NCBI RefSeq assembly: GCF_000284255.1 | Contig: NC_017075.1 | Span: 1,116,001-1,180,000 of the forward strand | Direction: 5' to 3' | DNA: 64,000 bases | Source: Rubrivivax gelatinosus IL144 | GTDB taxonomy: Bacteria > Pseudomonadota > Gammaproteobacteria > Burkholderiales > Burkholderiaceae_C | Shown here: piece after piece, positions 7,345-64,000 of the stretch | How the letters are laid out: every line of letters begins with the position of its first letter | Numbering within the stretch: the first letter of the stretch is position 1 | Translations under genes and position numbers: made by a program | The notes under the pieces: generated by a model | Database searches by the model: none | Seen by the model: only the letters and a program-made list of their open reading frames with translations | Told to the model about the DNA's origin: nothing

Positions 7345-8480
7345 AGTACACCATCCTGCAGCCCCGCCGCGAGCCGCTGGGCAGCCTGCTGCGTCTGGAC
7401 ATGCTGGTCGCCGGCATCTGCATCGCCGCGCTCGGCATGACGATGCTGGTCGGCAGCCTGCGCCTGGTGACCTACGTGATCCCGCCGTTGGCGCTGCTGG
7501 CCGTGCTGGCCACCGGTCGCCTGACCTGGTCGCCGAACGCGCCGCCGTACCTGGTGCTGATCGCCGCCGCGGCCCTGCTCGCGCCGCTGGGCAACATGGC
7601 CGGCCTGCAGGACGTCTACCTGATGCTGATCGGCCTGTCGCCGTTCGCCTTCGGTTGCCGCTACCGGCTGCCGTGGCAGCACATCTTCTGGGCGGCGGTG
7701 GTGGCGACACTGCTGACCTACGTCCGCAAGGGCGGCGTGGGCGGCGTCGAGTTCGATCCGATGACCTCGCGTTCCAGCTTCGAGGCCACGACGAGCTTCG
7801 TCTTCGGCGTGCTCGCGGCCTGGGCGGCCTGCGAGAGACGCTGGCTGGCTTCGCTGCTGGCGCTGCTGCTGTGCATCCTCACGCTCAAGCGCATCGTCGC
7901 GCTCGGCGCGATCGTGGTCGTGGCCGCGATGCTGCTGCCGCGCCGCTGGGTCGACCGGCTGCTGCGGCCGCTGCCGATGATCCTGCTGAACGTGCTGTAC
8001 CTGCTGGTGGTCATCCGCTACACGCAGGGCGGCTTCGATGCGCTGATCGTCCAGTACACCTCGCAGAGTTCGGACCAGCTCGGCATGGGGCGCCAGCGCC
8101 TGTACCACTACCCCGTGCAGGAGCTGTTGCACGACCCCTGGCGCTTCGCCTTCGTGGGCATGGGGCCGGGCAGCGCCTACGAGGTCATGAAGGGCGGCTG
8201 GGGCTTTCTCGGCAAGGCCAACCTGCACAACGACTCGCTGAAGATCCTCTTCGAGTACGGGGGACTCGTCTGGGCCGGCTTCTACGCCGTGCTCTACCGC
8301 ACTTCGCAGCGCCTGGAACTGCGCATCCTGATGCTCTTCGTCAACATCATGTTCCTGACCGACAACACGCTGATCTACCCCTACGTCATCTTCGCGATCG
8401 GCATCGCCTGCCAGAGTCTCGCCCCGGCGTCCGACACCGCGCAGGCCTGGGCGCGCGGCGACGCGGGAGCACGGCGATGA
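7341..8480 (+). CDS. Wzy-like polysaccharide polymerase / O-antigen ligase family membrane protein
   Basis: A 379-residue integral membrane protein with about ten hydrophobic segments. A periplasmic loop near residues 225-300 carries GQGGFDALI-like and QELLHDPWRFAFVG segments followed by GMGPGS and LHND motifs, as often seen in the large loop of Wzy/WaaL-type proteins. It is the only polymerase candidate in the exopolysaccharide region and pairs with the flippase at 1754-3241. The start ATG at 7341 overlaps the hydrolase stop by 4 bp. Family assignment is by topology and context because Wzy proteins share little sequence. Confidence 0.7.
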   Translation: MKYTILQPRREPLGSLLRLDMLVAGICIAALGMTMLVGSLRLVTYVIPPLALLAVLATGRLTWSPNAPPYLVLIAAAALLAPLGNMAGLQDVYLMLIGLSPFAFGCRYRLPWQHIFWAAVVATLLTYVRKGGVGGVEFDPMTSRSSFEATTSFVFGVLAAWAACERRWLASLLALLLCILTLKRIVALGAIVVVAAMLLPRRWVDRLLRPLPMILLNVLYLLVVIRYTQGGFDALIVQYTSQSSDQLGMGRQRLYHYPVQELLHDPWRFAFVGMGPGSAYEVMKGGWGFLGKANLHNDSLKILFEYGGLVWAGFYAVLYRTSQRLELRILMLFVNIMFLTDNTLIYPYVIFAIGIACQSLAPASDTAQAWARGDAGARR

Positions 8481-9526
8481 CCCGCGGCGTCGCCGGCTCG
8501 CGGCCGCTGCGCGTGCTGGAGTCCATCAATCCGCCCGACGGCACGACCCAGTACGTCGACCAGATCGTCGAGCTCGCGCCGCCCTGGGTGCGCTTCAGCT
8601 TCCTCGGCGCGAAGAACCTGGCGTCGCTGCGCTACGACGTGCTGCACGTGCACTGGCCCGAGTCGCTGCTCAGGGGCCGTTTCCATGTGCTGCGCTGCCT
8701 GGCCTTCGTCGCGCTGCTCGAGGTGCTGCGGCTGCGCCGCATCGCCGTCGTGCGCACGCTGCACAACCTCCAGCCGCACGAGGACGGCTCGCGCCTCGAA
8801 GCGGCCGTGCTGCGCTGGCTGGACCGGCGCACGACCTTCACCGTGACGATCAATCCGGTGACGCCGATCCCGGCCGGGCGCGGCGTCTACATCCCGCACG
8901 GCCACTACCGCGAGCGCTTCACCGCCTTGCCGCAGCAGGCACCGGTGGCCGGCCGGCTGCTGTACGCCGGCACGATCCGGCCCTACAAGGGCGTGGACGT
9001 GCTGCTGGACGCGTTCCGCGCGCTGGACGACCCGGCGCTGACGCTGCGCCTCGTCGGCCAACCCTCCCGGGAGATGCGTCCGCTGGTGGACCGCATGCAG
9101 TCCGACGACGGCCGCATCTCGGCGACCCTGGCCTTCGTGCCCGACGCCCTGCTGGTGGCCGAGATCACCGCCGCCCAGCTGGTCTGCCTGCCGTACCGGC
9201 AGTTGCACAACTCCGGGGTGCTGCTGGCGGCGCTTTCGCTGGACCGGCCGGTGCTGGTGCCGCGCACGCCCACCACCGAGGCGATGGCGCAGGAGGTGGG
9301 CCCGGGCTGGATCCACTTCTTCGACGGCGTGCTGCAGGCGCAGGACCTGCGCCGGGTGATGGCCAAGGTCCAGACCGAGTCGCGCCCCGAGCGCCCGCGT
9401 CTTGACGGGCGCGACTGGCGCGTCGTCGGCCAGGCCTATGCCGATGCCTTCGCGCAGGCTGCCGCGCTCGTCGGCCGCGCGCCGGTGGCGCGGCTCGCGC
9501 CCGATGGCCGTGGAGGCGAGCGGTGA
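8477..9526 (+). CDS. Glycosyltransferase (GT-B fold)
   Basis: A 349-residue protein. The N-terminal domain contains VLHVHWPESL, RTLHNLQPHE and later IPHGHY, and the C-terminal domain has RLLYAGTIRPYKGVDVLLDAF, the standard hinge and donor-binding start of GT4-type enzymes. These features resemble membrane-associated transferases of exopolysaccharide assembly. The donor sugar is unknown. It starts 4 bp inside the polymerase gene and ends 4 bp inside the next glycosyltransferase gene, so it belongs to the same transcript. Confidence 0.78.
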   Translation: MTRGVAGSRPLRVLESINPPDGTTQYVDQIVELAPPWVRFSFLGAKNLASLRYDVLHVHWPESLLRGRFHVLRCLAFVALLEVLRLRRIAVVRTLHNLQPHEDGSRLEAAVLRWLDRRTTFTVTINPVTPIPAGRGVYIPHGHYRERFTALPQQAPVAGRLLYAGTIRPYKGVDVLLDAFRALDDPALTLRLVGQPSREMRPLVDRMQSDDGRISATLAFVPDALLVAEITAAQLVCLPYRQLHNSGVLLAALSLDRPVLVPRTPTTEAMAQEVGPGWIHFFDGVLQAQDLRRVMAKVQTESRPERPRLDGRDWRVVGQAYADAFAQAAALVGRAPVARLAPDGRGGER

Positions 9527-49264: not shown

Positions 49265-49340
49265 GGGTCGTTAGCTCAGTCGGTAGAGCAGCGGACTTTT
49301 AATCCGTTGGTCGCGTGTTCGAGTCACGCACGACCCACCA
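49265..49340 (+). tRNA. tRNA-Lys(TTT)
   Basis: A 76-nt cloverleaf including an encoded CCA. The acceptor stem is GGGTCGT paired with ACGACCC; the anticodon loop CTTTTAA gives anticodon TTT (reads AAA/AAG). The D-arm (TTAGCTCAGTCGGTAGAGCA) and T-arm (GTTCGAGTC) are canonical. It is followed after 22 bp by the second lysine tRNA. Confidence 0.97.
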
Positions 49341-49362
49341 AGCGAACAGCGGATACGAATCA

Positions 49363-49438
49363 GGGCTCTTAGCTCAGTTGGTAGAGCAGCGGACTCTTAA
49401 TCCGTTGGTCGAGTGTTCGAGTCACTCAGGGCCCACCA
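49363..49438 (+). tRNA. tRNA-Lys(CTT)
   Basis: A 76-nt cloverleaf including CCA. The acceptor stem GGGCTCT pairs with AGGGCCC with one G-T wobble; the anticodon loop CTCTTAA gives anticodon CTT (reads AAG). It is nearly identical to the preceding tRNA in the D-arm and anticodon stem, which suggests a tandem duplication with anticodon change. The two form one transcription unit with the promoter at 49215 and the terminator at 49471. Confidence 0.97.
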
Positions 49439-50965: not shown

Positions 50966-52567
50966 ATGAAGCCGCCCAGCGAGGACGAGCGCCTGCTGCT
51001 GGCCGTGGACCTGGGCACCTCGGGCTGCAAATGCGCGCTGGTGTCGGTCGATGGCCGGGTGCTGGCCTGGGCCTTCCGGCCGGTCTCGCTGCACGTCGAA
51101 GGCGCCTGTGCCGAACAGGATCCTGAAGCCTGGTGGCAGGCCTTCCTCGGCGCGTCGCAGGAGCTGCTGGCGGCCGACGCCGCGCGGCGCCGGCGTGTGG
51201 TCGCGGTCTGCAGTTCGACCCAGGCCGAGGTCACGGTCTGCATCGACCGCGACGGCCGGCCGCTGCGGCCGGCGATCAGCTGGCTCGACTCGCGCGGCGC
51301 CGCCGCGATCCAGCGCCGCACGCGCGGGCGGCTGTTCAACGTCGAAGGCTACGGGCCGCTGAAGCTCTGGCAATGGCTGCGCCTCACCGGCGGCGCACCG
51401 ACCGCCACCGGGCGCGACTGCGCCGGCCACATCGCCTGGATCCACGACGAAGCGCCCGAGGTCTACGCGCGCACGCACAAGTTCCTCAACGCGCTGGACT
51501 ACCTGAACCTGCGCCTCACCGGGCGCATCTGCACGACGCAGGACGCGATCCTGACGAGCTGGGTGACCGACAACCGCGACGTGCGCCAGGTGCGTTACGC
51601 GCCGGCGCTGATCGCGCGTCTGGGCGTGGTGCCTGACCAGTTCCCGGAGATCGTCAAGAGCACCGACGTGATCGGCACGCTGCGCGCGGAAGTCGCCGCG
51701 GCGCTGGGCCTGGCGCCGGGCGTGAAGGTGGTCGCCGGCGGCGTCGACAACTCGGTGGTCGCGGTGGGCGCGGCCGTCGCCGACGGCGCGGCGCACCTGT
51801 ACCTGGGCACCTCGTCGTGGCTGGGCGCGCACGTGCCGTTCATGAAGACCGACGTGCGCCACAAGATCGCCGCCGTGCCGGGCGCCGTCGAAGGCCGCTA
51901 TCTGGCGATGGCGCTGCAGTCGACCGCCGGCGCCAACCTGTCCTTTCTGCGCGACCGCATCCTCTACCACGCCGACGAACTGGCCAGCGACGAGGAACAC
52001 CCGGCCGTCTACGAGGTGCTCAACCGCATCGCCGCGCGGGTGCCGCCCGGCGCGCGCGGCCTGCACTACACGCCCTGGCTGTTCGGCGAACGCACGCCGG
52101 TGGACGACCCGCGGCTGCGCGCCGGCCTCGTCAACCTGTCGCTGGACCATTCGCGCGAGGACATCTTCCGCGCCTTCCTCGAAGGTGTGGCGCTGAACAC
52201 GCGCTGGATGCTCGAGCCCTTCTCGCGTTTCCTCGGCGGCCGGCCCGAGACGATCACCGTCGTCGGCGGCGGCGGCCAGAGCGAGGTGTGGTGCCAGATC
52301 ATCGCCAGCGTCACCGGCAGCGCCATCCGCCAGCTCGAGAACCCGATCCAGGCCAACGCGGTGGGCGCGGCCTTCCTCGGCGCCATCGGCATCGGCGCGC
52401 TGCGTTTCGAGGACCTGGACGGCCTGCGCCGCACGCGCCGCGTCTTCGAGCCCGAGCCGGCGCTGCGCCAGCTCTACGGCGACAAGTTCGAGTCCTTCAA
52501 GGAGATCCACCGCCGCCTGGCGCCGCTGTACCGGCGCCTGAACGCGCCGCGGGAGAGCCACGCATGA
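50966..52567 (+). CDS. FGGY-family carbohydrate kinase
   Basis: A 533-residue sugar kinase. The N-terminal phosphate-binding motif LLAVDLGTSGCKCALVSVDG, the SWLDSRGA loop, the ITVVGGGGQSEVWCQI adenosine-binding motif and GAAFLGAIGIGAL near the C-terminus are family hallmarks. FGGY enzymes phosphorylate sugars or sugar acids such as xylulose, gluconate, ribulose or erythrulose; the substrate is not readable from these motifs. The ATG at 50966 is the first good start after the operator region. It overlaps the following class II aldolase gene by 4 bp, so kinase and aldolase should act in sequence. Confidence 0.88.
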   Translation: MKPPSEDERLLLAVDLGTSGCKCALVSVDGRVLAWAFRPVSLHVEGACAEQDPEAWWQAFLGASQELLAADAARRRRVVAVCSSTQAEVTVCIDRDGRPLRPAISWLDSRGAAAIQRRTRGRLFNVEGYGPLKLWQWLRLTGGAPTATGRDCAGHIAWIHDEAPEVYARTHKFLNALDYLNLRLTGRICTTQDAILTSWVTDNRDVRQVRYAPALIARLGVVPDQFPEIVKSTDVIGTLRAEVAAALGLAPGVKVVAGGVDNSVVAVGAAVADGAAHLYLGTSSWLGAHVPFMKTDVRHKIAAVPGAVEGRYLAMALQSTAGANLSFLRDRILYHADELASDEEHPAVYEVLNRIAARVPPGARGLHYTPWLFGERTPVDDPRLRAGLVNLSLDHSREDIFRAFLEGVALNTRWMLEPFSRFLGGRPETITVVGGGGQSEVWCQIIASVTGSAIRQLENPIQANAVGAAFLGAIGIGALRFEDLDGLRRTRRVFEPEPALRQLYGDKFESFKEIHRRLAPLYRRLNAPRESHA

Positions 52568-53214
52568 CCTACGAATCCGAACGCCGCCAGGTCGTCGACC
52601 TGTGCCTGCAGCTCTCGCACCGGGGCTTCTTCGCCGGCACTGGCGGCAACATCATGCTGCGCATCGACGCCGAGCTGGTCGCCGTCACGCCGTCGGCCAC
52701 CGACTACCTGACGATGCAGCCGCAGGACGTCTGCGTGCTGCGCCTGGCCGACCTGAGCCCGGTGGCCGGCGACCGCACGCCTTCGGTCGAGACCGGGCTG
52801 CACGCCCAGGTGCTGACCCGGCGCCCCGACGTCGTCTGCAGCATCCACACGCACCAGCCGGTGGCCAGCGCGCTGGCGCTGATCGGCCGCCCGCTGGCGG
52901 TGCCGCAGGCGCTGCACGGGCTGCTCGGCGCGCAGGTGCCGGTGGTCGGCTACGCGCCTTCGGGCTCGGGCTGGCTGGCGCGCAAGCTGGCCAGGACGCT
53001 GCGCCCCGATCTCAACGCCTACCTGATGCGCAACCACGGGATCCTGTGCTGCGGCCGTGGCGTGCGCGAGGCGATGTCGGCCGTCTCCGCGCTCGAACAG
53101 ATCGCGCGCGAGCAGCTTTTGAACGGCATCCGGGCGCGAGCCATCGCGAACCCGCCGGGACGCGAGGGCCTGACGCAGCTGGCGCAGTCCCTGTCGAGCG
53201 AGCAATCCGTCTGA
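52564..53214 (+). CDS. Class II aldolase/adducin family enzyme
   Basis: A 216-residue cytoplasmic protein similar to fuculose-1-phosphate aldolase and related sugar-phosphate aldolases. The metal-binding set is complete: Glu76 in SVETGLH, His95 and His97 in SIHTHQP and His158 in RNHGIL. FAGTGGNIMLRI near the N-terminus matches the substrate phosphate-binding loop. It should cleave or epimerise the phosphate made by the preceding kinase. The ATG overlaps the kinase stop; 7 bp separate its stop from the next gene. Confidence 0.87.
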   Translation: MTYESERRQVVDLCLQLSHRGFFAGTGGNIMLRIDAELVAVTPSATDYLTMQPQDVCVLRLADLSPVAGDRTPSVETGLHAQVLTRRPDVVCSIHTHQPVASALALIGRPLAVPQALHGLLGAQVPVVGYAPSGSGWLARKLARTLRPDLNAYLMRNHGILCCGRGVREAMSAVSALEQIAREQLLNGIRARAIANPPGREGLTQLAQSLSSEQSV

Positions 53215-53221
53215 GGAAACC

Positions 53222-54706
53222 ATGGATACACGAGTCACCCCGAACCCGGTCGACGGCCCCGAAGCCAGCTCGGGCATCTCCCGCTGGCCCGACACCGAGC
53301 AGTTGCAGCGCCGCTTCGACGAGCTGGTCAAGCAGCCGATGCGCCCAGTGCGCGCGGACGCGATGCAGAAGGTGCAGCGCTACTTCGACGAGCGCTGCAA
53401 GACCTCCAAGGCGCTGTCCGAACGCGCCAAGACCGTCATTCCGGGCGGCGTGCAGCACAACCTGGCGTTCAACCATCCGTTCCCGCTGGCCTTCTCGCAG
53501 GCCGAGGGCGCGCACCTGAGCGACGTCGACGGCAACCGCTACATCGACTTCCTGCAGGCCGGCGGCCCGACGCTGCTGGGCAGCAACTACGAGCCGGTGC
53601 GGCGCAAGGTGCACGAGCTGATCGACGAATGCGGCCCGGTCACCGGCCTGCTGCACGAGTACGAGGTGAAGCTTGCCGAACTCGTCTGCCGCCACATGCC
53701 GGGCGTCGAGATGCTGCGCCTGCTGGGCTCGGGCACCGAGGCGGTGATGGGCGCGGTGCGCCTGGCGCGCACCTTCACCGGTCGCAAGTGGATCATCAAG
53801 GTCGGCGGCGCCTATCACGGCTGGAGCGACCAGCTCGTCTACGGCATGCGCCTGCCCAAGACCGGCCGCATGGAAGCCACCGGCATCCCGCGCGGCGCCA
53901 CCGGCCACACCCAGGAGTGCCTGCCCAACGACCTCGACGAGCTGCGCCGCAAACTGAGCTGGAACCGCCTGCGCGGCGGCACGGCGGCGGTGCTGGTCGA
54001 GCCGCTGGGCCCGGAAAGCGGCACGCGGCCGGTGCACCGGGACTACAACCGCCAGGTGCGCCAGCTTTGCGACGAGTTCGGCGCGCTGCTGGTCTTCGAC
54101 GAGGTCGTCACGGGTTTTCGCACCGGGCTGGCCGGCGCCCAGGGCTACTTCGGCGTCAAGCCGGACATCACCGTGCTCGGCAAGTGCCTGACCGGCGGCT
54201 ACCCGATGGCCGGCGCGATCGGCGGCCGCAAGGACATCATGATGTCGCTGGTCGGCGGCATCGGCACCACCACCAAACGCGCTTTCGTCGGCGGCACGCT
54301 GTCGGCCAACCCGCTGTCCTGCGTCGCCGGCTACCACGCGATCCTGGAGATGGAGCGCACCGGCGCTGCGGCCAAGGCCGGGCGCGCCGGCGACCGGCTG
54401 TGCCAGGGGCTGGAGGAGATCATCCGCCGCCGCGGCCTGCCTTACGTCAGCTACAACATGGGCTCGATCGTGCACCTGCAGACCTCGGGCGTGCTGCTGC
54501 TGGACACCAGCAGCCTGTGGAAGCTGCTGAAGGTGAAGGACGAGGCCAAGCGCCGCAAGCACATGATGGAAGAGATGGGCGCGGCCTACACCGCGCACGG
54601 GCTGATCACGCTGGCCGGCAGCCGCATCTACACCAGCCTGGCCGACACCGACGAGGTGATCGACGACGCGCTGAACCGCTTCGACGACGTCTTCGCGCTG
54701 GTCTGA
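53222..54706 (+). CDS. PLP-dependent class III aminotransferase, glutamate-1-semialdehyde aminomutase-like
   Basis: A 494-residue fold-type I enzyme. The catalytic Lys321 lies in VLGKCLTGGYPMAGAIGG and the pyridine-binding Asp293 in LLVFDEVVTGFR. SGTEAVMGAVRLAR and GAYHGWSDQ are standard for the family that includes HemL. An N-terminal extension of about 60 residues and the location away from heme genes argue against HemL itself. Its substrate is probably an amino or keto derivative of the sugar handled by the kinase and aldolase. An AGGAAAC segment precedes the start ATG at 53222, and it shares the operon with the neighbours at 7 and 4 bp spacing. Confidence 0.85.
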   Translation: MDTRVTPNPVDGPEASSGISRWPDTEQLQRRFDELVKQPMRPVRADAMQKVQRYFDERCKTSKALSERAKTVIPGGVQHNLAFNHPFPLAFSQAEGAHLSDVDGNRYIDFLQAGGPTLLGSNYEPVRRKVHELIDECGPVTGLLHEYEVKLAELVCRHMPGVEMLRLLGSGTEAVMGAVRLARTFTGRKWIIKVGGAYHGWSDQLVYGMRLPKTGRMEATGIPRGATGHTQECLPNDLDELRRKLSWNRLRGGTAAVLVEPLGPESGTRPVHRDYNRQVRQLCDEFGALLVFDEVVTGFRTGLAGAQGYFGVKPDITVLGKCLTGGYPMAGAIGGRKDIMMSLVGGIGTTTKRAFVGGTLSANPLSCVAGYHAILEMERTGAAAKAGRAGDRLCQGLEEIIRRRGLPYVSYNMGSIVHLQTSGVLLLDTSSLWKLLKVKDEAKRRKHMMEEMGAAYTAHGLITLAGSRIYTSLADTDEVIDDALNRFDDVFALV

Positions 54707-54710
54707 GGCC

Positions 54711-55334
54711 ATGGAGCTCGACGACCTGCTGATGGCGACCTGGCTCCCGCTGCGCGAGCGCCTGGTCGGCAAGCGCCTGATGAACGGTGCCGGCGCCGCG
54801 CTGTCGCTGCGCATTCCCGGCGGCAGCACGATGTGGCACGGCGCCGCGGGCGACGCCGCGCCGCGCCGCGTCGACTGGCGCGACGAGACGGCGATCCCGG
54901 CGGCGGCGGTGTTCGCCGCGCGCCAGGACGTCTGCGCCGTGCTGCACGGCGGCGGTCTCTACGGCCCGCAGCTCGCCGGCTTCGGCGGCCGCATGCCGGG
55001 CGTGTTCGACGAGCAGGTGCGCCACCTCGGCCTGATGGCGGCGGCGCGCGGTTCATCGAACTGGGTGGCGACGCTGGCCAAGGGCGGCAACGCCGCGCTC
55101 CACGACGGCCTGCCGCTGGTGCTGGGCATGACCGGCGCACGCCTGGCGCTCAACGCCGAGCTGTTCGAGAAATGCGCCAAGGCCTACGTGCTGGCGCTGG
55201 GCGCCGGCGGCCAGGTCAGGCCCTTGCCGTGGATCGTGCGCCACGTCGCCAACGGCCGGCTGATGAGGGACGAGAAACGCGCCCGCGAGCGGGTCGCGCA
55301 AGGCCTGCTGCCCGAAGAGAGCAAGGGCTACTGA
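54711..55334 (+). CDS. Divergent class II aldolase-like protein lacking part of the metal site
   Basis: A 207-residue protein of the class II aldolase fold. LMNGAGAALSLRIPG parallels the FAGTGGN loop, and AIPAAAVFAARQDVCAVLHGGG parallels the metal-loop region. Glu59 and His79 can be aligned with Glu76 and His95 of the neighbouring aldolase, but the second His of the HTH pair is Gly81, and no NHG motif with the third His is found. So metal catalysis as in classical members is unlikely. It could be a regulatory or lyase subunit. It starts 4 bp after the aminotransferase stop, the end of the operon. Confidence 0.7.
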   Translation: MELDDLLMATWLPLRERLVGKRLMNGAGAALSLRIPGGSTMWHGAAGDAAPRRVDWRDETAIPAAAVFAARQDVCAVLHGGGLYGPQLAGFGGRMPGVFDEQVRHLGLMAAARGSSNWVATLAKGGNAALHDGLPLVLGMTGARLALNAELFEKCAKAYVLALGAGGQVRPLPWIVRHVANGRLMRDEKRARERVAQGLLPEESKGY

Positions 55335-55349
55335 ACGCCGCCGACGCGA

Positions 55350-55372
55350 GCGGCCGGGCCTCAGCCGGCCGC
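55350..55372. other. GC-rich hairpin between convergent operons
   Basis: GCGGCCGG at 55350-55357 can pair with CCGGCCGC at 55365-55372 across a 7-nt loop. There is no T-run, and the right arm lies in the last codons of the leftward gene. It may slow or stop either convergent transcript. Confidence 0.4.
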
Positions 55373-56638
55373 CGGGAACGGCGTCCAGGTGTCGACGATG
55401 CCGCGTTCGCCGTCCCAGACGGCGATGTCGCCGAACTGCTGCAGCACCGCTTCGCTCTGCGTCGGGCGGAAGAACACCAGGCTGTCGGGCTCCAGCGCCT
55501 GGCGGCCCGAGCCGAGCAGGATCTGCTGGTTCGACGACGGGCCGATCAGCGCGCTGGCCGCCAGCCCGGCCGGCGACACCGGCTCGGCGAGCCAGTGGCC
55601 GCCGTGGATGTGGGCCTGGCGGCGCTGGTTGGGGTCCCAGGCGCGGGCCAGCGTGCCGACGAACTCGACGCCGACCGGCGGCCGGAACTCGGCCACCTTC
55701 AGCACCGGCGTGGCGATGAAGGCCGCGCAGCGGAAGTCCGCCAGCAGCGGCGTGTCGAAGTCCAGCGGCTTGACCATCGCCGAGCCGACCGCGACCTCGT
55801 TGGCCGCGCCGCTGCCGTCGTGCAGCCTGAAGGTCGGCGAGCCGCCGGTGTTCAGCGTCGCGTCGGCCAGCCGGGCGGCCAGTGGGCTGCGTCGCAGCTC
55901 GTCGACGGCTTCGCGGTAACGCACCAGCACCTGCTCGCGTGCGTAGGGTCGCCAGCCTGGCAGGTCGGGCAGCTTCTCGGTGTGCGCGTCGTAGCCCATG
56001 AAGCCCGACCACTGCAGCAGCGGCTCCTCGGCGATCAGCTGCAGCATCGTGCGCAGCGTCGCCGGGTCGGCGACGCCGCCGCGATGCAGGCCGACGTCGA
56101 TCTCGAGGTTCACGCGCATCGGCTGGCGCTGCGCACGCGCCAGCTCGCGGTACTGCTGCAGCCGCGCCGGCGTGTCGACCAGCCACTGCAGCTGGCGCGC
56201 GGGCTCGAAGCCCGAGGCCGGGCGCTGGCGCAGGTACTGCGCCGCGGCGGCCACCGGCAGCGGCTTGCCGAGCAGCAGCTCGCACTGCGGCCGCGCGCGG
56301 CTCGTCAGCTCCAGGTACGGCAGGTTGAAGACCATCTGCCGCTGCGTGCCGGTGGCCGCGGCCACGGCGTCGAGCAGCGCCAGGCAGGGCAGCGACTTGT
56401 TCACCAGCCGCAGCTGCAGCCGCCCGGCGACGTGGCGCTGCACCAGCGCCGCGTTGGCGCGCAGCCGCGCCAGGTCCAGCACCAGCGTCGGCTGCTGCGC
56501 CAGCCCGGCGGCACGCAGCGAGCGCGCCAGCGCGGCGAAGTAGGCGTCGTGCGGCGCGCCGCGCTCGCCAGGGCGCAGCAGCGCGACCGCGGCCAGCGCG
56601 GCGCCGCCGACGAGCAGGCGGCGGCGGCCGGGTCTCAT
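55361..56638 (-). CDS. Exported PLP-dependent alanine-racemase-fold protein (DSD1/D-threonine aldolase-like)
   Basis: A 425-residue protein. The start RPGRRRLLVGGAALAAVALL is a twin-arginine-type signal. The fold-type III domain begins about residue 48 with TLVLDLARLRANAALV, followed by LRLVNKSLP with the likely PLP Lys81, and NLEIDVGLHRGGV. The C-terminal beta domain (ADATLNTGGSPTFRLHD, VGSAMVKPLD) matches D-serine dehydratase/D-threonine aldolase relatives, but their zinc-binding His/Cys pair is not evident. Export by Tat would suit a cofactor-loaded enzyme. It starts 4 bp inside the end of the FAD oxidase gene, so it is coupled to it. Confidence 0.72.
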   Translation of the reverse strand: MRPGRRRLLVGGAALAAVALLRPGERGAPHDAYFAALARSLRAAGLAQQPTLVLDLARLRANAALVQRHVAGRLQLRLVNKSLPCLALLDAVAAATGTQRQMVFNLPYLELTSRARPQCELLLGKPLPVAAAAQYLRQRPASGFEPARQLQWLVDTPARLQQYRELARAQRQPMRVNLEIDVGLHRGGVADPATLRTMLQLIAEEPLLQWSGFMGYDAHTEKLPDLPGWRPYAREQVLVRYREAVDELRRSPLAARLADATLNTGGSPTFRLHDGSGAANEVAVGSAMVKPLDFDTPLLADFRCAAFIATPVLKVAEFRPPVGVEFVGTLARAWDPNQRRQAHIHGGHWLAEPVSPAGLAASALIGPSSNQQILLGSGRQALEPDSLVFFRPTQSEAVLQQFGDIAVWDGERGIVDTWTPFPAAG

Positions 56639-58026
56639 GCGAGGCCGAAGACCTGGCGCAGGTGCGTGTTCAGGAAACGCCCCTGCGGATCGAACTCGCG
56701 CCGCACGCGGCCGAAGTCGGCCCAGCGCGGGTACAGCGCCGCCAGCTCGGTGGCGCCCAGCGTGTGCAGCTTGCCCCAGTGCGGCCGGCCGCCGTGGGCG
56801 AGGCAGATGCGGCTGCCTTCGCGCACGAGGGTCTCGTGCTCCTCGTCGGCGGCGGCGTGGAGCGCGATCGAGCAGCTGTCGCGGCCGTGGAAAGGGCTCA
56901 GCCAGGCCTCGTCGCGGCGCACCCAGCGCATCTCGATCGGGAAGAAGGCGTCGTGGTGGCGCTCGATCTCGGCGATGACCGCGCGCAGGCCGTCCAGGCC
57001 CCGTTCGGCCGGCAGGTGCCATTCGGTCTCGTTGAAGCGCACCGAGCGGGTCGTCGACAGCAGCCGGTAGCCGCGGTCGCGTGCGTGTTCGGTCTGCTGC
57101 GGGTCGATCAGGCGCTGCGCGGCCCAGCTGCGCAGCACCGGGAAGCGGCCCAGCCAGTCGCGCAAACGCTTCAGGTCGGCCAGCACCGTGTCGTCGGCCG
57201 GCCGCGGCGTGACGACGTCGCTGCCGGCGTAAGGCGCGTGCGCGACGGCCGCCGCGTAGCCGGTGAAGGGCAGCACGAAGAGCTCGAAGTGGCGGTAGGA
57301 CGCGGCCAGCGCCGGGGCTTCCTCGAGCAGGCGGTCGACCGGGCGCAGCCAGACCTTGCGCTCCAGCGCGTAGGCCGGCACGACCCGCAGCGTGTACTGC
57401 GTCGCGACGCCCAGGCTGCCCAGCGAGACACGCGCCGCGGCCAGCGCCTGCGGGTCGCGGCGCTCGTCCAGCTCGACGAGGCGGCCGTCGGCGCCGACCA
57501 GGCGCAGCGCGAGCACGTCGGCGTGCAGCGCCGGCAGCGTCGCGCCGGTGCCGTGCGTGCCGGTGGCCAGCGCGCCGGCCAGGGTCTGCATCGTGATGTC
57601 GGGCAGGTTGCGCAGCGCCAGGCCCTGGGCGTCCAGCGCCTGGGCCAGCACGGCCAGGCGGGTGCCGGCGCGCACGGTCGCGGTGCCGGCGGCCTTGTCG
57701 ACGGACACGAGGCCGGACAGGCGGTCCAGCGACACCAGCGTGCCCGGCGTCGGCACCAGCGCGCTGAACGAATGGCCCGAGCCGACGGCGCGCAGCTCGC
57801 CGCGTGCGGCCCGCAGCAGCGCCTGCAGCTCGGTTTCGCTGCCGGGCGTGGCAATGGCCGCGGGCGTGGCCTGCTGCAGCCCCGACCAGTTGCGCCAGCG
57901 CGGCGCTGCCACCGGCCGAGCCGGCGTCGGCGTCTGTGCGGCCGCGGCGGTCACCCAGCCGGCGACGACCGTCGCCGCGGCGCTGGCGCAGACCTGGCGG
58001 CGCGTGAAGGGCGGGAGTGTGTTCAT
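56635..58026 (-). CDS. Tat-exported FAD-linked oxidase, D-arabinono-1,4-lactone oxidase family
   Basis: A 463-residue protein with a Tat-type signal (FTRRQVCASAAATVV, cleaved near residue 30). The PCMH-type FAD domain has RAVGSGHSFSALVPT with His85, the position where FAD is covalently bound in gulonolactone/arabinonolactone oxidases, and LAGALATGTHGTG. The C-terminal ALO domain ends RREFDPQGRFLNTHLRQ, typical of the family. The true substrate is unknown; sugar lactones, sugars or other polyols are possible. It overlaps the cytochrome c gene by 4 bp, so electrons may go to that cytochrome in the periplasm rather than to oxygen. Confidence 0.85.
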   Translation of the reverse strand: MNTLPPFTRRQVCASAAATVVAGWVTAAAAQTPTPARPVAAPRWRNWSGLQQATPAAIATPGSETELQALLRAARGELRAVGSGHSFSALVPTPGTLVSLDRLSGLVSVDKAAGTATVRAGTRLAVLAQALDAQGLALRNLPDITMQTLAGALATGTHGTGATLPALHADVLALRLVGADGRLVELDERRDPQALAAARVSLGSLGVATQYTLRVVPAYALERKVWLRPVDRLLEEAPALAASYRHFELFVLPFTGYAAAVAHAPYAGSDVVTPRPADDTVLADLKRLRDWLGRFPVLRSWAAQRLIDPQQTEHARDRGYRLLSTTRSVRFNETEWHLPAERGLDGLRAVIAEIERHHDAFFPIEMRWVRRDEAWLSPFHGRDSCSIALHAAADEEHETLVREGSRICLAHGGRPHWGKLHTLGATELAALYPRWADFGRVRREFDPQGRFLNTHLRQVFGLA

Positions 58027-58376
58027 CGTGGCCGGCTCATGAAGTCGATCAAACGAAGCAGGTCCTCGTCGCTGCAGTCGGCGCACAGGCCCCGCGGCGG
58101 CATCGTGTTGAAGCCTTCGCGCGCGCGCTGCAGCAGCACCGCCGGCCCCTGGGCCAGCCGCGGCCGCCACGACGGCGCGTGGCCGGCCAGCGGCGCCGGC
58201 CCGCGTGTGGTGTGGCACAGGCGGCAGGAGCGCTCCCAGCGCTCGGCCAGCGCGGCGTCGTCGGGCCGCATCGATTCGGCGCGGTGGTAATCGGCGTCGG
58301 CGGGCGGTGCGCCGGCCGGGCTGCAGGCCGCGAGCAGCAGCGCCGCGGCGGCGGGCAGCCAGGCGCGCGGCTTCAT
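58023..58376 (-). CDS. Small cytochrome c lipoprotein
   Basis: A 117-residue protein with a lipoprotein signal (LLLAAC lipobox with the Cys at residue 19). One heme-binding CRLCH motif follows about residue 50, and PAPLAGHAPSWRPRLAQG with FNTMPPRGLC contains the Met likely to be the sixth heme ligand. It lies between the MMPL exporter and the FAD oxidase genes with 4-bp overlaps at both sides, so it is probably the electron acceptor of the oxidase. Two extra Cys residues (LCADC) near the end are unusual for this class and could form a disulfide. Confidence 0.85.
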   Translation of the reverse strand: MKPRAWLPAAAALLLAACSPAGAPPADADYHRAESMRPDDAALAERWERSCRLCHTTRGPAPLAGHAPSWRPRLAQGPAVLLQRAREGFNTMPPRGLCADCSDEDLLRLIDFMSRPR

Positions 58377-60754
58377 TCGGCCACCGGCGCCAGCTGCGCC
58401 GCCCGCCGGCGCGAGGCCAGGCGCTGCCACAGCCAGGCCAGCGCCGGCATTAGCAGCAGCGCGCCGAGCACGTTGACCAGGAACATGAAGGCCAGCAGCA
58501 GCCCCATGTCGGCCTGGAACTTCAGCTGCGAGAAGGCCCAGGAGCCGACGCCGACGCTCATCGTCGCCGCCGTGAACAGCACCGAGCGCCCGCGTTCGTG
58601 CAGCGACAGCGCCCAGGCGTCGGGCAACGCCATGCCGTCGGCCAGGTGGTGCTTCAGGCGTTCGTAGAGGTAGATGCCGTAGTCGACGCCGACGCCGACG
58701 CCCAGCGTCACCACCGGCAGCGTCGAGACCTTCAGGCCGATGCCCAGCCAGGCCATCGTCGCATTGCACAGCAGCGACACCAGCGCCAGCGGCACGATGA
58801 TGACGACCGCGCCGCAGAGGTCGCGGAAGGTGATGACGCACAGCACCGCCAGCGAGACGAAGATCGCCGCCAGCATGCGCGGCTCGGCGGCGCTGACGGC
58901 TTCGTTGGTCGCCGCCATCACGCCGAGGTTGCCGCCGCCGAGCCTGAGCTGCACCGCGGCCGACGGGTTGGCTGCGGCGTAGTCCTGCACCGCCTGGACG
59001 ATGCGGCTGATCGTGTGCGCGTCGTGGTCGGCGGCGAACACCAGCACTTGCATCGCCTCGCACGAGCGGGCCACCAGCCCGGCGCCTTCGGTGATCAGCT
59101 GGTTCGAGGCCTGGCCCATCGCCGCCGGGCTGTCGGCGACGACGCGCCACTTGATGTTGCCCTCGTTCCAGCCGGCGTTGATCATCGCCGCGAAGAACGG
59201 ATAGGCGATGACGCGCGAGACGCCGTCGACCTCGCCGAGCCGCGCCTCGAGCCGGTCGATGTAGTCGGCGGCCTCGGGCCGCAGGCAGATCTGGCGCGTG
59301 CTCTCGTCGTGGGCGCCGTCCGGCGGCACGACGTAGACCGTCAGCAGCTCGCTGCCCAGGCTGAACGAACGCAGCACGGCCGCCGAGTCGCGGTTGTAGC
59401 GCGCGTCCGGGAAGAACTCCGGCATGCCCACGCCCTGGTCGCCGATGCGCACCTTGGCGCCCTCGACGTGGCCCACCCAGGCCAGGCCCAGCGAGACGGC
59501 GAGCACGCCGACGGCCAAGGGCGCCGTCGCCGCCGAGGCCACCCAGCGCAGCGCGCGCGGCAGCTGCTCGGCGGCGTCGCGCGCGGCGCGGTGCGGCGCG
59601 TGGCGCGGGTGGCCGAAGGACAGGATGACCGGCAGCAGCACCTTGTTGGTCAGGATCATCAGGCTGACGCCGATGCTGGCCATGACGCCGAGCTCGCGCA
59701 CGATCTCGATGTCGACGAGCATGATGACCAGGAAGCCGATGGCGTTGGTCAGCAGCGCCAGCGTGCCGGGCACGAAGAGCGCGACGAAGGCTTCGTGCGC
59801 GGCCTCGGCCGGCGTCGCGCCGCGGCGCACCGCACGCGACCAGGCGCTGGTCATCTGCACCGCGTGGCTGACGCCGATCGTGAAGATCAGGTAGGGCACC
59901 AGGATCGACAGCGGGTCGATGCCCATGCCGATCAGCGGCATCAGCCCCAGCAGCCAGAGCACCGGCAGCACGGCGACGGCCAGCGCGCGCCAGGTCAGCG
60001 CCCAGGAGCGGCTGTACCAGCGCAGCAGCAGCGTCGTCACGGCGGCCGCGGCGGCGAAGAACAGCAGCACGCCGCGCGTGCCTTCGGCGATGTCGCCGAT
60101 GACCTTGGCGAAGCCGACGATGTGCACGTCGACGTGCTCGTCGGCGTACCGGGCGCGCAGCGCCTCGAGCTTGCGCGCGACGGCTTCGTAGTCCAGCGGC
60201 TCGGCGCTGCCCGGCGTGCGGTCCTGCAGCTCGAACTGGATCAGCGCGCCGTGCAGGTCGTTGCTGACCAGGCGGCCGATCTCGCCGGACTTCTCGGTGT
60301 TGGTGCGCACCGTGGCGATGTCTTCGGCCGAGCCGGTGAAGCCCGAGCGGATGACGCTGCCGCCGGCGAAACCCTGTTCGGTGATCTCGACGTAGCGCAC
60401 GCGCGGCGTCCACAGCGACATCACCGACTCGCGGCGCACGCCGTCGATGAAGAAGACGTCGTCGGTCGCGGCCTTCAGGCGTTCGAGGTACCGCGCCTCG
60501 AAGATGTCGCCCTGCTTGTTGACCAGCGCGACGAGCACCGTGTTGGCGCCGCCGAAGACGTTCTCGTAGCGCAGGAAGTCCCGCATGAACGGGTGCTGCT
60601 GCGGGATCGACTTCTCGAAGCGCGCGTCCAGGCGCAGCTGCGTCGCCGAACAGCCCAGGGCCAGGGTCAGCGCGCTCATCACGACGAGCACGGCGATGCG
60701 CCAGCGGATCAGCGCGTCGGCGATGCGGTGGGTGGCGGTCTGCAACCGGGTCAC
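58373..60754 (-). CDS. RND/MMPL family exporter
   Basis: A 793-residue inner-membrane protein with two repeats of one plus five membrane segments (about 18-40 and 225-420; about 440-460 and 625-790) and large periplasmic loops after the first segment of each half. GGANTVLVALVNKQGDIFEARYL and the second half VTLGVGVGVDYGIYLYERL are typical of the hydrophobe/MMPL exporters. These export lipids, hopanoids or other hydrophobic molecules, and this type is recalled next to DUF1302/DUF1329 genes. The ATG at 60754 gives a normal first helix. It lies 22 bp downstream of the YCF48-like gene. Confidence 0.9.
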   Translation of the reverse strand: MTRLQTATHRIADALIRWRIAVLVVMSALTLALGCSATQLRLDARFEKSIPQQHPFMRDFLRYENVFGGANTVLVALVNKQGDIFEARYLERLKAATDDVFFIDGVRRESVMSLWTPRVRYVEITEQGFAGGSVIRSGFTGSAEDIATVRTNTEKSGEIGRLVSNDLHGALIQFELQDRTPGSAEPLDYEAVARKLEALRARYADEHVDVHIVGFAKVIGDIAEGTRGVLLFFAAAAAVTTLLLRWYSRSWALTWRALAVAVLPVLWLLGLMPLIGMGIDPLSILVPYLIFTIGVSHAVQMTSAWSRAVRRGATPAEAAHEAFVALFVPGTLALLTNAIGFLVIMLVDIEIVRELGVMASIGVSLMILTNKVLLPVILSFGHPRHAPHRAARDAAEQLPRALRWVASAATAPLAVGVLAVSLGLAWVGHVEGAKVRIGDQGVGMPEFFPDARYNRDSAAVLRSFSLGSELLTVYVVPPDGAHDESTRQICLRPEAADYIDRLEARLGEVDGVSRVIAYPFFAAMINAGWNEGNIKWRVVADSPAAMGQASNQLITEGAGLVARSCEAMQVLVFAADHDAHTISRIVQAVQDYAAANPSAAVQLRLGGGNLGVMAATNEAVSAAEPRMLAAIFVSLAVLCVITFRDLCGAVVIIVPLALVSLLCNATMAWLGIGLKVSTLPVVTLGVGVGVDYGIYLYERLKHHLADGMALPDAWALSLHERGRSVLFTAATMSVGVGSWAFSQLKFQADMGLLLAFMFLVNVLGALLLMPALAWLWQRLASRRRAAQLAPVAE

Positions 60755-60776
60755 GGGCCTGTCCTCGTCGAGGTCT

Positions 60777-61769
60777 TCATGCCAGCCAGGGCCCGCGGGG
60801 CAGCGGCTGGATACCGGTCTCGCCGACGGCGAGCAGGCTGCGCGAGGCGCCGCCGCTCAGAACGGTGCGCCAGGCGCCCGGGCCGACACGCGCCTGGTGC
60901 TGCAGGCGCCAGCCGGCGGCCGCGTCGGGGCCGAGGCTGGCGACGGCGCCGCCGTTGCCGGCCAGCAGCACACGCCGGCCAGCGCCTTGGCCGACCAGCG
61001 TCGCGCCGTACCAGGCGGCCGGCGCTTGCGCCGCCAGCAGCTGCCAGTGCTGGCCGGCGTCGGCCGAATGCAGCAGCGTGCCGCCCAGGCCGGCGGCGAC
61101 GAACTCGCGTTCGCCTGTTGCGACGACGGCGAACAGCGAGGCGCTGGCCGCGCCGCCGGTTTCGGCCCAGCTGCGGCCGCCGTCGGCGCTGCGCAGCACC
61201 AGGCCGCGTTCGCCGACGACGACGATCGCCGCCGGCGTCGCCGCGCAGGCGTTGAGGTGGCGGTCGTCCTCGACGGCCTTCAGCGCCGCCCAGTGCGCGC
61301 CGCCGTCGTCGCTGGCCCAGCAGGCGCCGAAAGCACCGACGGCCAGCAGCCGGTTCTGCGGCAGCACCAGCGCGTCCAGCAGCGACAGCGACTCGGGCGT
61401 GGCGATGGGCCGCGCCTGCCAGCTGTCGCCGCCGTCGGCGCTGGCGAGCACGGTGCCGCGGTGGCCGACGGCCAGGCCGCGGCGGCCGGCCATGACGATG
61501 GCGGTGATGCCGCCGGCGCCGGTCTCGGCGCTGCGGCGCCAATGGGCGCCGCCGTCGCGCGAGCGGTAGAGCTGGCCGCGGTGGTCGCCGACCCAGAGGC
61601 TGTCGCCCTGCTGGCAGCCGGCCAGCAGCACGCCGGCGCGCCGGTCGGGCGGGCGCGCGGCGGCGGCGTCCGGCGCAGGCTGGGCGTGCAGCCCGGGGGC
61701 CAGCAGCACCAGACCGGCGCCGCCGGCCTTGCGGAGGATGGCGCGGCGCGCCGGGGAAGGGGCAGACAT
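60777..61769 (-). CDS. YCF48/BNR-repeat-like beta-propeller protein with Tat-like signal
   Basis: A 330-residue protein. ARRAILRKAGGAGLVLLAPGLHAQ is a Tat-like signal. The mature part is a propeller with recurring SxDGGxxW motifs (SRDGGAHWRR, SADGGDSWQA, SDDGGAHWAA, SADGGRSWAE, SADAGQHWQL), the BNR/photosystem II stability factor Ycf48 pattern. The role in heterotrophs is unknown; in DUF1302/DUF1329 clusters it is a regular member and may assist assembly of an envelope complex. The ATG at 61769 is 32 bp after the DUF1329 stop. Confidence 0.85.
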   Translation of the reverse strand: MSAPSPARRAILRKAGGAGLVLLAPGLHAQPAPDAAAARPPDRRAGVLLAGCQQGDSLWVGDHRGQLYRSRDGGAHWRRSAETGAGGITAIVMAGRRGLAVGHRGTVLASADGGDSWQARPIATPESLSLLDALVLPQNRLLAVGAFGACWASDDGGAHWAALKAVEDDRHLNACAATPAAIVVVGERGLVLRSADGGRSWAETGGAASASLFAVVATGEREFVAAGLGGTLLHSADAGQHWQLLAAQAPAAWYGATLVGQGAGRRVLLAGNGGAVASLGPDAAAGWRLQHQARVGPGAWRTVLSGGASRSLLAVGETGIQPLPRGPWLA

Positions 61770-61801
61770 GGGCGTCGCGGCGTCGGGCGGCCGGGGCCGC
61801 G

Positions 61802-63151
61802 TCAGCGGGTGCCGAGGTTGCGCAGGTTCTGCGGCGAGTAGTAGTCGGCCGTGCGCTCGTTGAGCACCTTGAACTTCGGCCTGGAGTCGTTGGTCAGCGT
61901 CGTGAAGTAGCGGCCCGAACGCAGGTCGTAGAAGGTGTCGGTGGAGGTGAACACGCCGCCCAGCCAGGGCGCGATGATCGGCACCGTCTCCGAGACCCGC
62001 CAGAGCTCGCCGCGCTGGTCGTACTTCTCCTGCAGCACCGCGGACCAGCTGTCCTCGTCGACGTAGAAGACACGTTTGCCGTAGATGTGGCTGGCACCCT
62101 TCTTCAGCGTCGCCTCGACGACCCAGACGCGGTGCAGCTCGTAGCGCATGTAGCTCGGGTTGACGTGGCCGGGCTTGAGGATGTCGGCGGCCTTGGCGTC
62201 GGACTGCAGCATCGCGTAGTTGTGGTACGGCACGATCAGCTCGCGCTTGCCCAGCAGCTTCCAGTCGTAGCGGTCGGTGCCGCCGTTGAACTCGTCGACC
62301 TCGTCGCTGGTCAGCATGCCGTCGCGCTGCGGCGTGTCGTAGGCGAACTCGGGCGCCAGGCGCACGCGGCGCTGGCCGGGGCTGTAGATCCAGATCGACT
62401 GGAAGGGCTTGCCCGGCTCGGCGCTGATCGCCGAATGCGCCAGCACCATCTCGCCGGCTTCGCGCGCCGGCGCCAGCTTGCGTTCGAGGTAGTAGCTCAG
62501 CACGTTGGGCACGCGCGCCTCGGGCTTGATCGCCGGGTTGCCGTGCTGGCGCAGCACCTCGTATTCGAGCTTGGAGAAGCTGGCGTCGCCGTTGGGCGCG
62601 ACGTTGGCGTAGGTCAGCGTCTGGCCGTAGGCCGCGCCCATGAACCTGAACTTGTGGTTCAGGATGACTTCCTCGCCGTTCTTCGGGATCGGGAAGGGCA
62701 CGCCGCCGGACGAGCCGACGATGCCGCCGTTGACCAGCCTGGCGCGGCCCGGGTTCAGCGCCGTCTCGTCGTAGACGGCCTGCGGGAAGAAGGCGCTGCG
62801 GTGGGTCTTGTACAGCGGCAGCGCGTAGCTCGCGTACTTCTTCAGCAGCGCGACGTGGCCGGGCGAGAGCTTGTCCTGGTAGCTCGCCAGGTTGGCCACC
62901 GTGATGACGGCCAGCGGCTTCTCGGCGGCGTAAGGGTTGGGGTAGTCGTTGGCGTTGCTCCACTTGAGCAGCTCGCGCTCGCCGCCGGTCCAGGCGGGAA
63001 TGGAGCCGTCGGCGTTGGGCTTGGGATCGGCGCCGACCGGGCTCAGGCTCTTGCCGAGATCGGCCGCGGTCTGGGCCTGGGCGGCCGCCGGCACGGCCAG
63101 GGACGCTGCGGCGAGCAGCACGGCGAGGATGGACGGGGCGCGGTGTCGCAC
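61802..63151 (-). CDS. DUF1329 family periplasmic/outer-membrane lipoprotein-like protein
   Basis: A 449-residue exported protein with a Sec signal (ending AAQAQT about residue 27). IPAWTGGERELLKWSN, RLVNGGIVGSSGGVPFPIPKNGEE and GKRVFYVDEDSWSAVLQEKYDQRGELWR are the DUF1329 signature regions. The family fold resembles LolA/LolB-like lipid-binding proteins by general knowledge, and it is regularly co-encoded with DUF1302, so a role in carrying hydrophobic compounds is likely. I chose the GTG at 63151 because TAGGAG lies 7 bp upstream; an ATG at 63190 would sit inside the DUF1302 gene. Confidence 0.87.
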   Translation of the reverse strand: MRHRAPSILAVLLAAASLAVPAAAQAQTAADLGKSLSPVGADPKPNADGSIPAWTGGERELLKWSNANDYPNPYAAEKPLAVITVANLASYQDKLSPGHVALLKKYASYALPLYKTHRSAFFPQAVYDETALNPGRARLVNGGIVGSSGGVPFPIPKNGEEVILNHKFRFMGAAYGQTLTYANVAPNGDASFSKLEYEVLRQHGNPAIKPEARVPNVLSYYLERKLAPAREAGEMVLAHSAISAEPGKPFQSIWIYSPGQRRVRLAPEFAYDTPQRDGMLTSDEVDEFNGGTDRYDWKLLGKRELIVPYHNYAMLQSDAKAADILKPGHVNPSYMRYELHRVWVVEATLKKGASHIYGKRVFYVDEDSWSAVLQEKYDQRGELWRVSETVPIIAPWLGGVFTSTDTFYDLRSGRYFTTLTNDSRPKFKVLNERTADYYSPQNLRNLGTR

Positions 63152-63179
63152 GGTGGCTCCTATCGTCAACGGCGGGTCG

Positions 63180-64000
63180 TCAGAAGGCATAGCTGAGGCT
63201 GAACGCGACGAAGTCCCGGTCCTTCAGCAGGTTGGAGTTCGAGGCGTACTGGAAGCCGGCGACCGGGTCGGTGGCGCGGTAGACGCGGCCGCCGAAGTAG
63301 CCCGTGTACGAGAGGTCGGCCTTCCAGCGCTTGTCGGCGCTGACCAGCGCGGTGCCCAGGCTCAGCGAGCGCACGCCTTCGGTGAAGCTGGGGCCCGTGC
63401 CGTGCACGTCGTGCGAGAAGGACACGCGCGGCGACAGCGTCATGCCGGCGATGGCCTGGCTGTAGTCCATCTGGTAGGCCAGCACGTAGCCCCAGGAGGC
63501 GCGTGTCGTGAAGCCTTCGCTCTGCGAGGCCAGCACCGAGCCCAGGCCCAGCCGCGTGACGAGCTCGGTCGAGGTCAGATAGACGCCCGGGCCGTCGTAG
63601 ACCTTGCCGTCGGACAGGCCGAGGTGGGTGTAGCCGACTTCGGCCAGCAGCATCGAGCCGGTCGAGCCCAGCACCGCGCCGGTGGACTTGGTGGCGCTGA
63701 CCTGGATCTGGTGCATCTTGACGCGGTCGTAGCCGCGCAGCGTCGTGCCGGCCAGCGCCGAGACCTCGGGCGGCACCAGGCCGGTCAGCCCGGCCAGCGC
63801 CGCCTGCGTCGACAGGTCGCCGAGCTGCACCGGCTGGTTGGGGCGGTAGGTGTACTCGCCCTGCAGCGCCACGCCCCAGGGGCCCTGGGCGCGCGCGCTG
63901 ACGCCGAAGACGCGGATGCGCTCCGGGTACTCGAGGAAGTAGCTGGCGCTGCCGGCCGGGTACAGCGGGTTGGCCGAGGACGGCACGCCGCCCGCCGCCG
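63180..64000 (-). CDS. DUF1302 family outer-membrane protein, C-terminal part (partial)
   Basis: About 273 codons are in the window; the 5' end lies beyond 64000. The sequence is a series of amphipathic strands (VRLGLGSVLASQSEGF-like, WKADLSYTGYFGG, FVAFSLSYAF) ending in a terminal Phe, the outer-membrane barrel signal. The region starting PLYPAGSASYFLEYPERIRVFGVSARA is typical of DUF1302. Family members act as outer-membrane channels for hydrophobic substrates in several degraders, though function is mostly inferred. It leads the leftward cluster, 28 bp before DUF1329. Confidence 0.85.
   Translation of the reverse strand, partial: AAGGVPSSANPLYPAGSASYFLEYPERIRVFGVSARAQGPWGVALQGEYTYRPNQPVQLGDLSTQAALAGLTGLVPPEVSALAGTTLRGYDRVKMHQIQVSATKSTGAVLGSTGSMLLAEVGYTHLGLSDGKVYDGPGVYLTSTELVTRLGLGSVLASQSEGFTTRASWGYVLAYQMDYSQAIAGMTLSPRVSFSHDVHGTGPSFTEGVRSLSLGTALVSADKRWKADLSYTGYFGGRVYRATDPVAGFQYASNSNLLKDRDFVAFSLSYAF

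Follow-up and report, generated by a model that had tools for sequence, protein, structure and literature searches.

Seven leftward genes in the window (the 64,000-nucleotide stretch G000:C1:1116001-1180000 of the 5.04-Mb, single-contig genome of Rubrivivax gelatinosus IL144) join two units of described kinds. The first four (DUF1302-DUF1329-YCF48-MMPL) are, by predicted family and order, an AmeABCD-type RND cassette of a known kind. The last three, encoding a cytochrome c, an ALO-family flavoenzyme and a fold-III pyridoxal phosphate (PLP) protein, are predicted to be sphBCD-like, matching that unit in order, family and signals. The joining of this trio to an Ame cassette is new in that no published paper linking both units was found in open-licence PMC text. 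We read the operon as an envelope system whose substrates are sphingoid bases or long-chain 2-amino-1,3-diols very like them, with a probability of roughly 0.57. The question addressed is the bacterial chemical destruction of sphingosine, a lipid that acts against microbes on epithelial surfaces, and of related plant sphingoid bases.

Open reading frame (ORF) reading and Pfam matches (DUF1302, DUF1329, YCF48-like, MMPL, Cytochrome_CBB3, ALO + FAD_binding_4 and Ala_racemase_N) place all seven genes on the minus strand at the positions given in an earlier note on this DNA. They encode an AmeA-like DUF1302 outer-membrane barrel (63180..64000, running past the window end; 606 aa in the genome, ORF L002 13000-11180; PF06980, 508 bits), an AmeB-like DUF1329 periplasmic protein (61802..63190; 462 aa; PF07044, 427 bits), an AmeC-like YCF48-like periplasmic protein with an RR-type signal, PARRAILRKAGG (60777..61769; 330 aa; PF14870, 59 bits), and an AmeD-like MMPL/RND inner-membrane transporter with a GTG start (58373..60754; 793 aa; PF03176, 86 bits). 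These are followed by a SphB-like mono-haem cytochrome c lipoprotein with a LAAC lipobox and a CRLCH haem motif (58023..58376; 117 aa; PF13442, 43 bits), a SphC-like ALO-family flavin adenine dinucleotide (FAD) enzyme with a signal of the twin-arginine translocation (Tat) type, FTRRQVCASAAATVVAGW (56635..58026; 463 aa; PF04030, 162 bits; TIGR01679, 456 bits), and a SphD-like PLP protein with a Tat-type signal or anchor, GRRRLLVGGAALAAVALL (55361..56638; 425 aa; PF01168, 70 bits), whose fold-III assignment is backed by a structure model and fold match. Overlaps of 4 bp are found at the MMPL/cytochrome, cytochrome/ALO and ALO/PLP junctions, and gaps of 22 bp and 32 bp at the YCF48/MMPL and DUF1329/YCF48 junctions, respectively. 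The DUF1302/DUF1329 overlap is 11 bp, provided that the ATG at 63190 is the DUF1329 start.

The trio recurs well beyond the window. Named genomes were scanned with a 16-member PLP alignment, which gave 560 confirmed loci. The best 80 of these were analysed, a set in which close relatives are over-represented and from which genomes very close to the window's are possibly left out. Partners were sought by tblastn with window proteins as queries (E 1e-4) in flanks of up to 10 kb per side. The PLP protein is found in 80/80 of these loci, the oxidase in 76/80 and the cytochrome in 65/80, and 65/80 repeat the order cytochrome-ALO-PLP, which exceeds chance. The envelope redox module, with its pairing of oxidase and cytochrome, that had been proposed for these genes is supported. 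Among the loci missing a partner are L017, L021, L033, L061, L074 and L083, all cut by a contig end.

Trios of the sphBCD-like kind occur in scattered Burkholderiales, some with adjacent ceramidase genes. A neutral ceramidase lies near the PLP gene in 16 of the best 80 loci (representative L025, 669 aa, PF04734, 615 bits), and other recurrent neighbours are a Gcw_chp outer-membrane-type protein (12 loci), a DUF2147 protein (12), a TonB receptor (13) and TetR regulators; an aldehyde dehydrogenase is present in 4/80 and also in genome G043. These families come from ORF clustering, with Pfam run on representatives and the other members assigned by cluster. The recurrent neighbours, the neutral ceramidase included, indicate sphingolipids, and the literature agrees. 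According to the available text of PMC3900636, PA5328-PA5326 of Pseudomonas aeruginosa are sphBCD, encoding a cytochrome, a flavin oxidoreductase and a PLP threonine-aldolase-like protein, and the sphingosine-responsive SphR regulon consists of sphBCD, the ceramidase gene cerN and the porin gene sphA. The portion available of PMC5150637 reports induction of sphBCD by sphingomyelin and supplies the family names of PA5328-PA5326 (cytochrome c, ALO-family oxidoreductase and Ala_racemase_N PLP protein), while sphBC are reported to be needed for sphingosine metabolism in P. aeruginosa and to be important both when cells grow with three sphingoid bases and in sphingosine loss (PMC11893366, 2025, available text).

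The likeness to P. aeruginosa sphBCD was drawn through these published descriptions and the Pseudomonas-type locus L138, not PAO1 sequences; the L138 proteins are 47% (PLP), 41% (ALO) and 46% (cytochrome) identical to those of the window. In the Pseudomonas-type G559, the trio is accompanied by a convergent gene read as an outer-membrane protein and by an AraC gene, matching the reported sphBCD/sphA/sphR arrangement. The 120 best database entries listed for the G559 PLP protein share 76-92% identity with it, and many are named Pseudomonas.

The window ALO protein passes TIGR01679 (456 bits, cut-off 292), and the PDB entries with which it aligns are xylitol (alditol) oxidase, L-galactonolactone dehydrogenases and an FAD-binding protein. 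Residues were counted over 81 aligned rows, which keep the short G-genome loci L101-L104 (L102 and L103 are apparent duplicates of L023 and L036). Aligned with 2vfr, His85 is conserved in 80/80 readable rows, Glu365 and Arg367 each in 79/79 and Lys419 in 79/80. We take His85 to be the flavin-linking histidine and the other three to be active-site residues. The gatekeeper position, placed by alignment to L-galactonolactone dehydrogenase, is Pro142 in the window and proline in 76/78 readable rows. From the gene linkage it is likely that the enzyme uses the cytochrome. A tie between cytochrome loss and a gatekeeper glycine was considered and rejected: L073 and L099 fit, but proline is kept at other loci that have no cytochrome match, for example L025, L048 and L057.

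The PLP protein retains its Schiff-base lysine, Lys81, in 81/81 loci; L101-L104 and L106, five short loci of the G genomes, are left out of this count. In a MAFFT alignment with five aldolase-like proteins, the metal-ligand positions of D-threonine aldolase, a role held there by His347 and Asp349 (PMC4401734), are occupied by Gln394 (74/81; K in 5, L in 1 and H in 1) and Glu396 (81/81). The hhalign alignment covers PLP residues 44-313 only, and the C-terminal motif therefore rests on the MAFFT alignment. In an alignment with 4v15, Lys222, invariant in 16/16, falls at the place of His193, the catalytic base of D-threonine aldolase. As aligned, the D-threonine-aldolase metal ligands are lost in SphD-like proteins, which is a new observation.

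Twin-arginine-type starts had been claimed for the YCF48-like protein, the FAD oxidase and the PLP protein, and all three are seen with our rule, a motif test rather than a signal predictor, which calls for two arginines (RR) and then an uncharged hydrophobic stretch. Counted again without the short G-genome loci, the rule is passed by 78/81 PLP proteins and by 61 of the 74 ALO proteins with readable N-termini (three more are cut), against backgrounds of 2/427 and 0/391 for internal segments of the PLP and ALO proteins. The PLP proteins that fail are those of L040, L099 and L017, the last at a contig edge. Among the 13 ALO proteins that fail, some, for example those of L007, L037 and L056, have a readable RR with a charge in the hydrophobic stretch; the ALO protein of L077 has unreadable letters and that of L099 has no such signal. 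The idea that signals are lost from both enzymes wherever the cytochrome is missing was rejected, being true of L099 alone, as seven other loci with no cytochrome match keep the PLP signal.

Database records bear on the same point. Of the listed homologues near the window PLP protein, 119/120 are full length, all with RR in the first 30 residues. Near the L138 PLP protein (8188-9465), 77/120 are full length, again all with RR in the first 30 residues, and the remaining 43 Pseudomonas-type SphD-like records are each 402 aa and start after the twin-arginine signal. Both versions are listed for strain TCU-HL1 (P0139 and P0180), the shorter being the longer minus its first 23 residues, start residue aside. 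These late starts are likely to reflect a recurrent start-site error, and the records suggest that the PLP protein carries a Tat-type signal, new here, that was missed in some database entries. A working Tat signal on SphC has been demonstrated in P. aeruginosa, according to the available text of a Tat survey, and the main text of that survey, as available, lists SphC and PvdN and does not name PA5326 (PMC6085387).

The earlier note took the first four genes for a recurrent set and the parts together to suggest uptake or export of a hydrophobic compound. Order and sizes are as in Castellaniella defragrans, and Ame-type cassettes are of a kind tied to hydrophobic compounds, in support of that suggestion. 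In that organism AmeA (DUF1302), AmeB (DUF1329), AmeC (COG4447/YCF48-type) and AmeD (HAE3 RND) are described as a conserved cassette conferring monoterpene tolerance (PMC6394551, available text). In C. defragrans DSM 12141, locus L159, a candidate ameABCD, has the four genes arranged alike and with 29-45% identity to those of the window, and it lies on a separate contig from that strain's trio. The best NCBIfam match of the window MMPL protein is TIGR00921 (HAE3), at 153 bits and so below the cut-off of 352. Genes for DUF1302 and DUF1329 proteins, together with an RND pair, are reported to be required for Tween 20 use in Pseudomonas putida, where a model assembles their products into one transport complex (PMC10866462, available text). 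With a tolerance role in Castellaniella and a Tween 20 role in P. putida, transport could run in either direction (export or uptake).

Gene content, order, families, signal motifs, catalytic-residue conservation and the recurrent neutral-ceramidase linkage in related loci were observed directly. What the substrate is here, where it is oxidised, that the PLP protein is exported and carries out an aldol cleavage, and which way transport runs are inferred. The Ame-type cassette would carry an amphiphile across the envelope, in whichever direction, and a periplasmic SphC-like flavoenzyme would oxidise the C1 alcohol, with electrons passing to the SphB-like lipoprotein cytochrome c. The Tat-exported SphD-like protein would then act on the product, a 2-amino-3-hydroxy carbonyl compound or acid, and release a long-chain aldehyde and a glycine-type fragment. 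A bolder version, which is possible but doubtful, sees here a full periplasmic line of sphingoid-base degradation, unlike the cytoplasmic route through sphingosine kinase and sphingosine-1-phosphate (S1P) lyase. The RND cassette would handle the lipid, and a covalent-flavin enzyme would pass electrons from C1 to cytochrome c, yielding a 2-amino-3-hydroxy compound of D configuration. SphD, as a Tat-exported relative of D-threonine aldolase that needs no metal, would cut this compound outside the cytoplasm, its export having been overlooked partly through starts placed 23 residues late.

Several results weigh against the sphingoid-base reading. The PLP protein is without the metal ligands used by D-threonine aldolase. 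DUF1302, DUF1329, YCF48 and MMPL genes occur in 0/80 of the best PLP loci within the flanks searched, and on this ground the idea of a new conserved seven-gene operon was rejected. The PLP gene is present in 39 of 194 genomes from the order of Marinobacter L079, and the 16 regions examined from these 39 contain all three genes in 7 cases, oxidase and PLP genes in 2, and neither partner in 7. A TetR gene takes the place of SphR, and in the literature found the reaction is without biochemical proof. A gatekeeper proline is usual in O2-using oxidases, with known exceptions (PMC11505616, available text), and because Pro142 is typical of these enzymes, cytochrome use is not proved. In P. aeruginosa, sphD is dispensable for growth, and the authors left open the product of SphC/SphB and their direct action on sphingosine (PMC11893366, available text). 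A ceramidase protein query, which as a positive control matched 2/11 genomes, both known carriers, found no neutral ceramidase in the window genome or in seven other PLP-carrying genomes of its order (0/8); a PF04734 profile search gave no match, not even in the controls. Finally, there is no AraC gene or SphA porin among the neighbours read (TetR, MFS, esterase, DUF1302 and a convergent plus-strand module), the rest of the genome not having been searched.

Some of these points would fit the same enzymes having been re-purposed for another hydrophobic alcohol or amino alcohol, such as a terpenoid, aromatic or antibiotic-like compound, a direction in which the Ame cassette, the esterase and the MFS protein point. 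The failure to find a ceramidase in the window genome, the Abhydrolase_3 esterase gene upstream and the recurrent kinase/aldolase/aminotransferase module, which has no obvious sphingolipid role, favour such a change, as do the service of Ame proteins in monoterpene tolerance and growth in Castellaniella and the importance of related P. putida genes for Tween 20, both as reported in the text available. It is nonetheless unlikely, given that ceramidase-linked loci have the same catalytic residues in the oxidase and the same C-terminal QSE motif in the PLP protein, and that the nearest named PLP relatives, those in the best 80 of 560 loci, sit in trio loci, many of them ceramidase-linked.

All seven genes are there, but the single seven-gene system put forward in the earlier note consists of two described units, sphBCD-like and Ame-like, and co-occurrence of its seven families across genomes did not hold up. 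A sample of 399 genomes from the window's order, with the best few candidates per genome scored, has the PLP protein (E 1e-60) in 8, DUF1329 (E 1e-40) in 42 and both in three (G000, G043 and G388), the two genes being on separate contigs in G388. A comparable joining is found only in G043, from another family, in a different order and with no cytochrome detected: one strand carries genes for ALO, an ORF that by eye looks MFS-like, PLP, aldehyde dehydrogenase, DUF1329, DUF1302, MMPL and YCF48. At this locus (L099), the ALO and PLP proteins are without export signals, the MFS-like ORF lies between them and the gatekeeper is glycine. Here the pathway may run in the cytoplasm.

In a DUF1329 tree, the window protein groups with cassettes of PLP-free genomes (97/94 support) and G043 is placed elsewhere, suggesting that the two joinings arose separately; the long window and G043 branches make their placing unsure, and in this tree the L159 row is absent and L161 too short. 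In three related Marinobacter-order regions with neither oxidase nor cytochrome, the PLP gene and an Ame-type cassette are 2-4 kb apart. At L141, L142 and L143, a PLP-family gene lies close to such a cassette with no oxidase or cytochrome, and the PLP proteins of L141 and L143 have an N-terminal hydrophobic anchor and no twin arginine. Among 36 other genomes of the window's genus there is no match better than E 7e-5, and the island is therefore sporadic. That the Ame-type pump and the sphBCD-type unit are functionally unrelated neighbours, sharing a transcript by accident of insertion, agrees with the counts from the best PLP loci and from the 399 genomes but is distinctly improbable in view of the 4-bp overlaps at MMPL/cytochrome and both trio junctions, which suggest co-expression, the second joining in G043 with its differently placed DUF1329, and the proximity of PLP gene and cassette in the three Marinobacter-order genomes.

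The earlier note, which did not remark on the sphingosine link, the two upstream genes or the convergent plus-strand module, had read the seven genes as one operon. The tight junctions support this, but the operon was incomplete: it extends past the window into same-strand genes for an Abhydrolase_3 esterase (Pfam; 68 bp upstream of DUF1302, at L002 14088-13069) and an MFS-type protein (L002 15350-14178, 89 bp beyond the esterase; weak Pfam match of 19 bits, below cut-off), followed by a divergent TetR gene upstream of the MFS gene (L002 15439-16164). A search of this upstream region turned up neither a sigma-70-like promoter nor an informative operator repeat. Beyond the TetR gene is a Lactate/malate-dehydrogenase-family gene (L002:16177-17103, minus strand).

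On its other side the PLP gene is faced, 26 bp away, by a plus-strand module. This encodes an FGGY-family kinase (50981..52564; 72% identical to L013:798-2387, itself FGGY_N + FGGY_C), a class II aldolase (52576..53193; 61% identical to L014:1120-1773, itself PF00596, 144 bits), a class III aminotransferase, AMT3, that is glutamate-1-semialdehyde-aminomutase-like (53222..54706; PF00202, 171 bits; best NCBIfam matches are aminomutase models, all below cut-off) and, at its end, a class II aldolase-like protein, ALD2 (54711..55334), named from reading alone and with no Pfam or NCBIfam match. AMT3 (E 1e-150) occurs in 1/399 order genomes, the window's own. At 83-86% identity it is found in 5/80 best PLP loci, each with ALD2, an MFS protein and an FGGY-kinase-cluster gene, a recurrence that ties module and trio together. 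The PLP gene of L069 is directly followed by the MFS gene. The module's substrate is perhaps an alpha-amino-aldehyde-type compound. Tandem tRNA-Lys genes (ttt, ctt) lie upstream of it (49265-49438, plus strand).

If the sphingoid-base reading is true, SphD would be placed in the periplasm, a D-configured intermediate and a metal-free aldolase would be predicted, and new enzymes with a linked transporter would be available for testing the sphingosine pathway.

The system can be set beside four known ones. With sphBCD of P. aeruginosa it shares three co-directional genes, in the order cytochrome c, ALO-family oxidoreductase and Ala_racemase_N PLP protein, as well as an oxidoreductase with a Tat-type signal and a lipoprotein cytochrome (LAAC lipobox and CRLCH haem motif in the window). 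It differs in having a TetR gene where sphBCD has an adjacent AraC gene, and in its linkage to esterase and MFS genes and an Ame cassette. From D-threonine aldolase and D-3-hydroxyaspartate dehydratase, the window PLP protein differs in its Gln394/Glu396 in place of the His/Asp metal ligands, in Lys222 in place of the base His193, and in its export-type signal. The earlier note had thought an exported PLP enzyme unusual; the export-type signal is present, but PvdN provides a precedent. We take PvdN to be a PLP-dependent, fold-I pyoverdine enzyme and no relative of the window protein. It is likewise a Tat substrate in P. aeruginosa, termed an aminotransferase in the available text of the Tat survey (PMC6085387). 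The cassette has the gene order of AmeABCD of C. defragrans, with sizes of 605/451/316/787 aa there (PMC6394551, available text) vs 606/462/330/793 in the window, and differs from it in the sph-like trio that directly follows.

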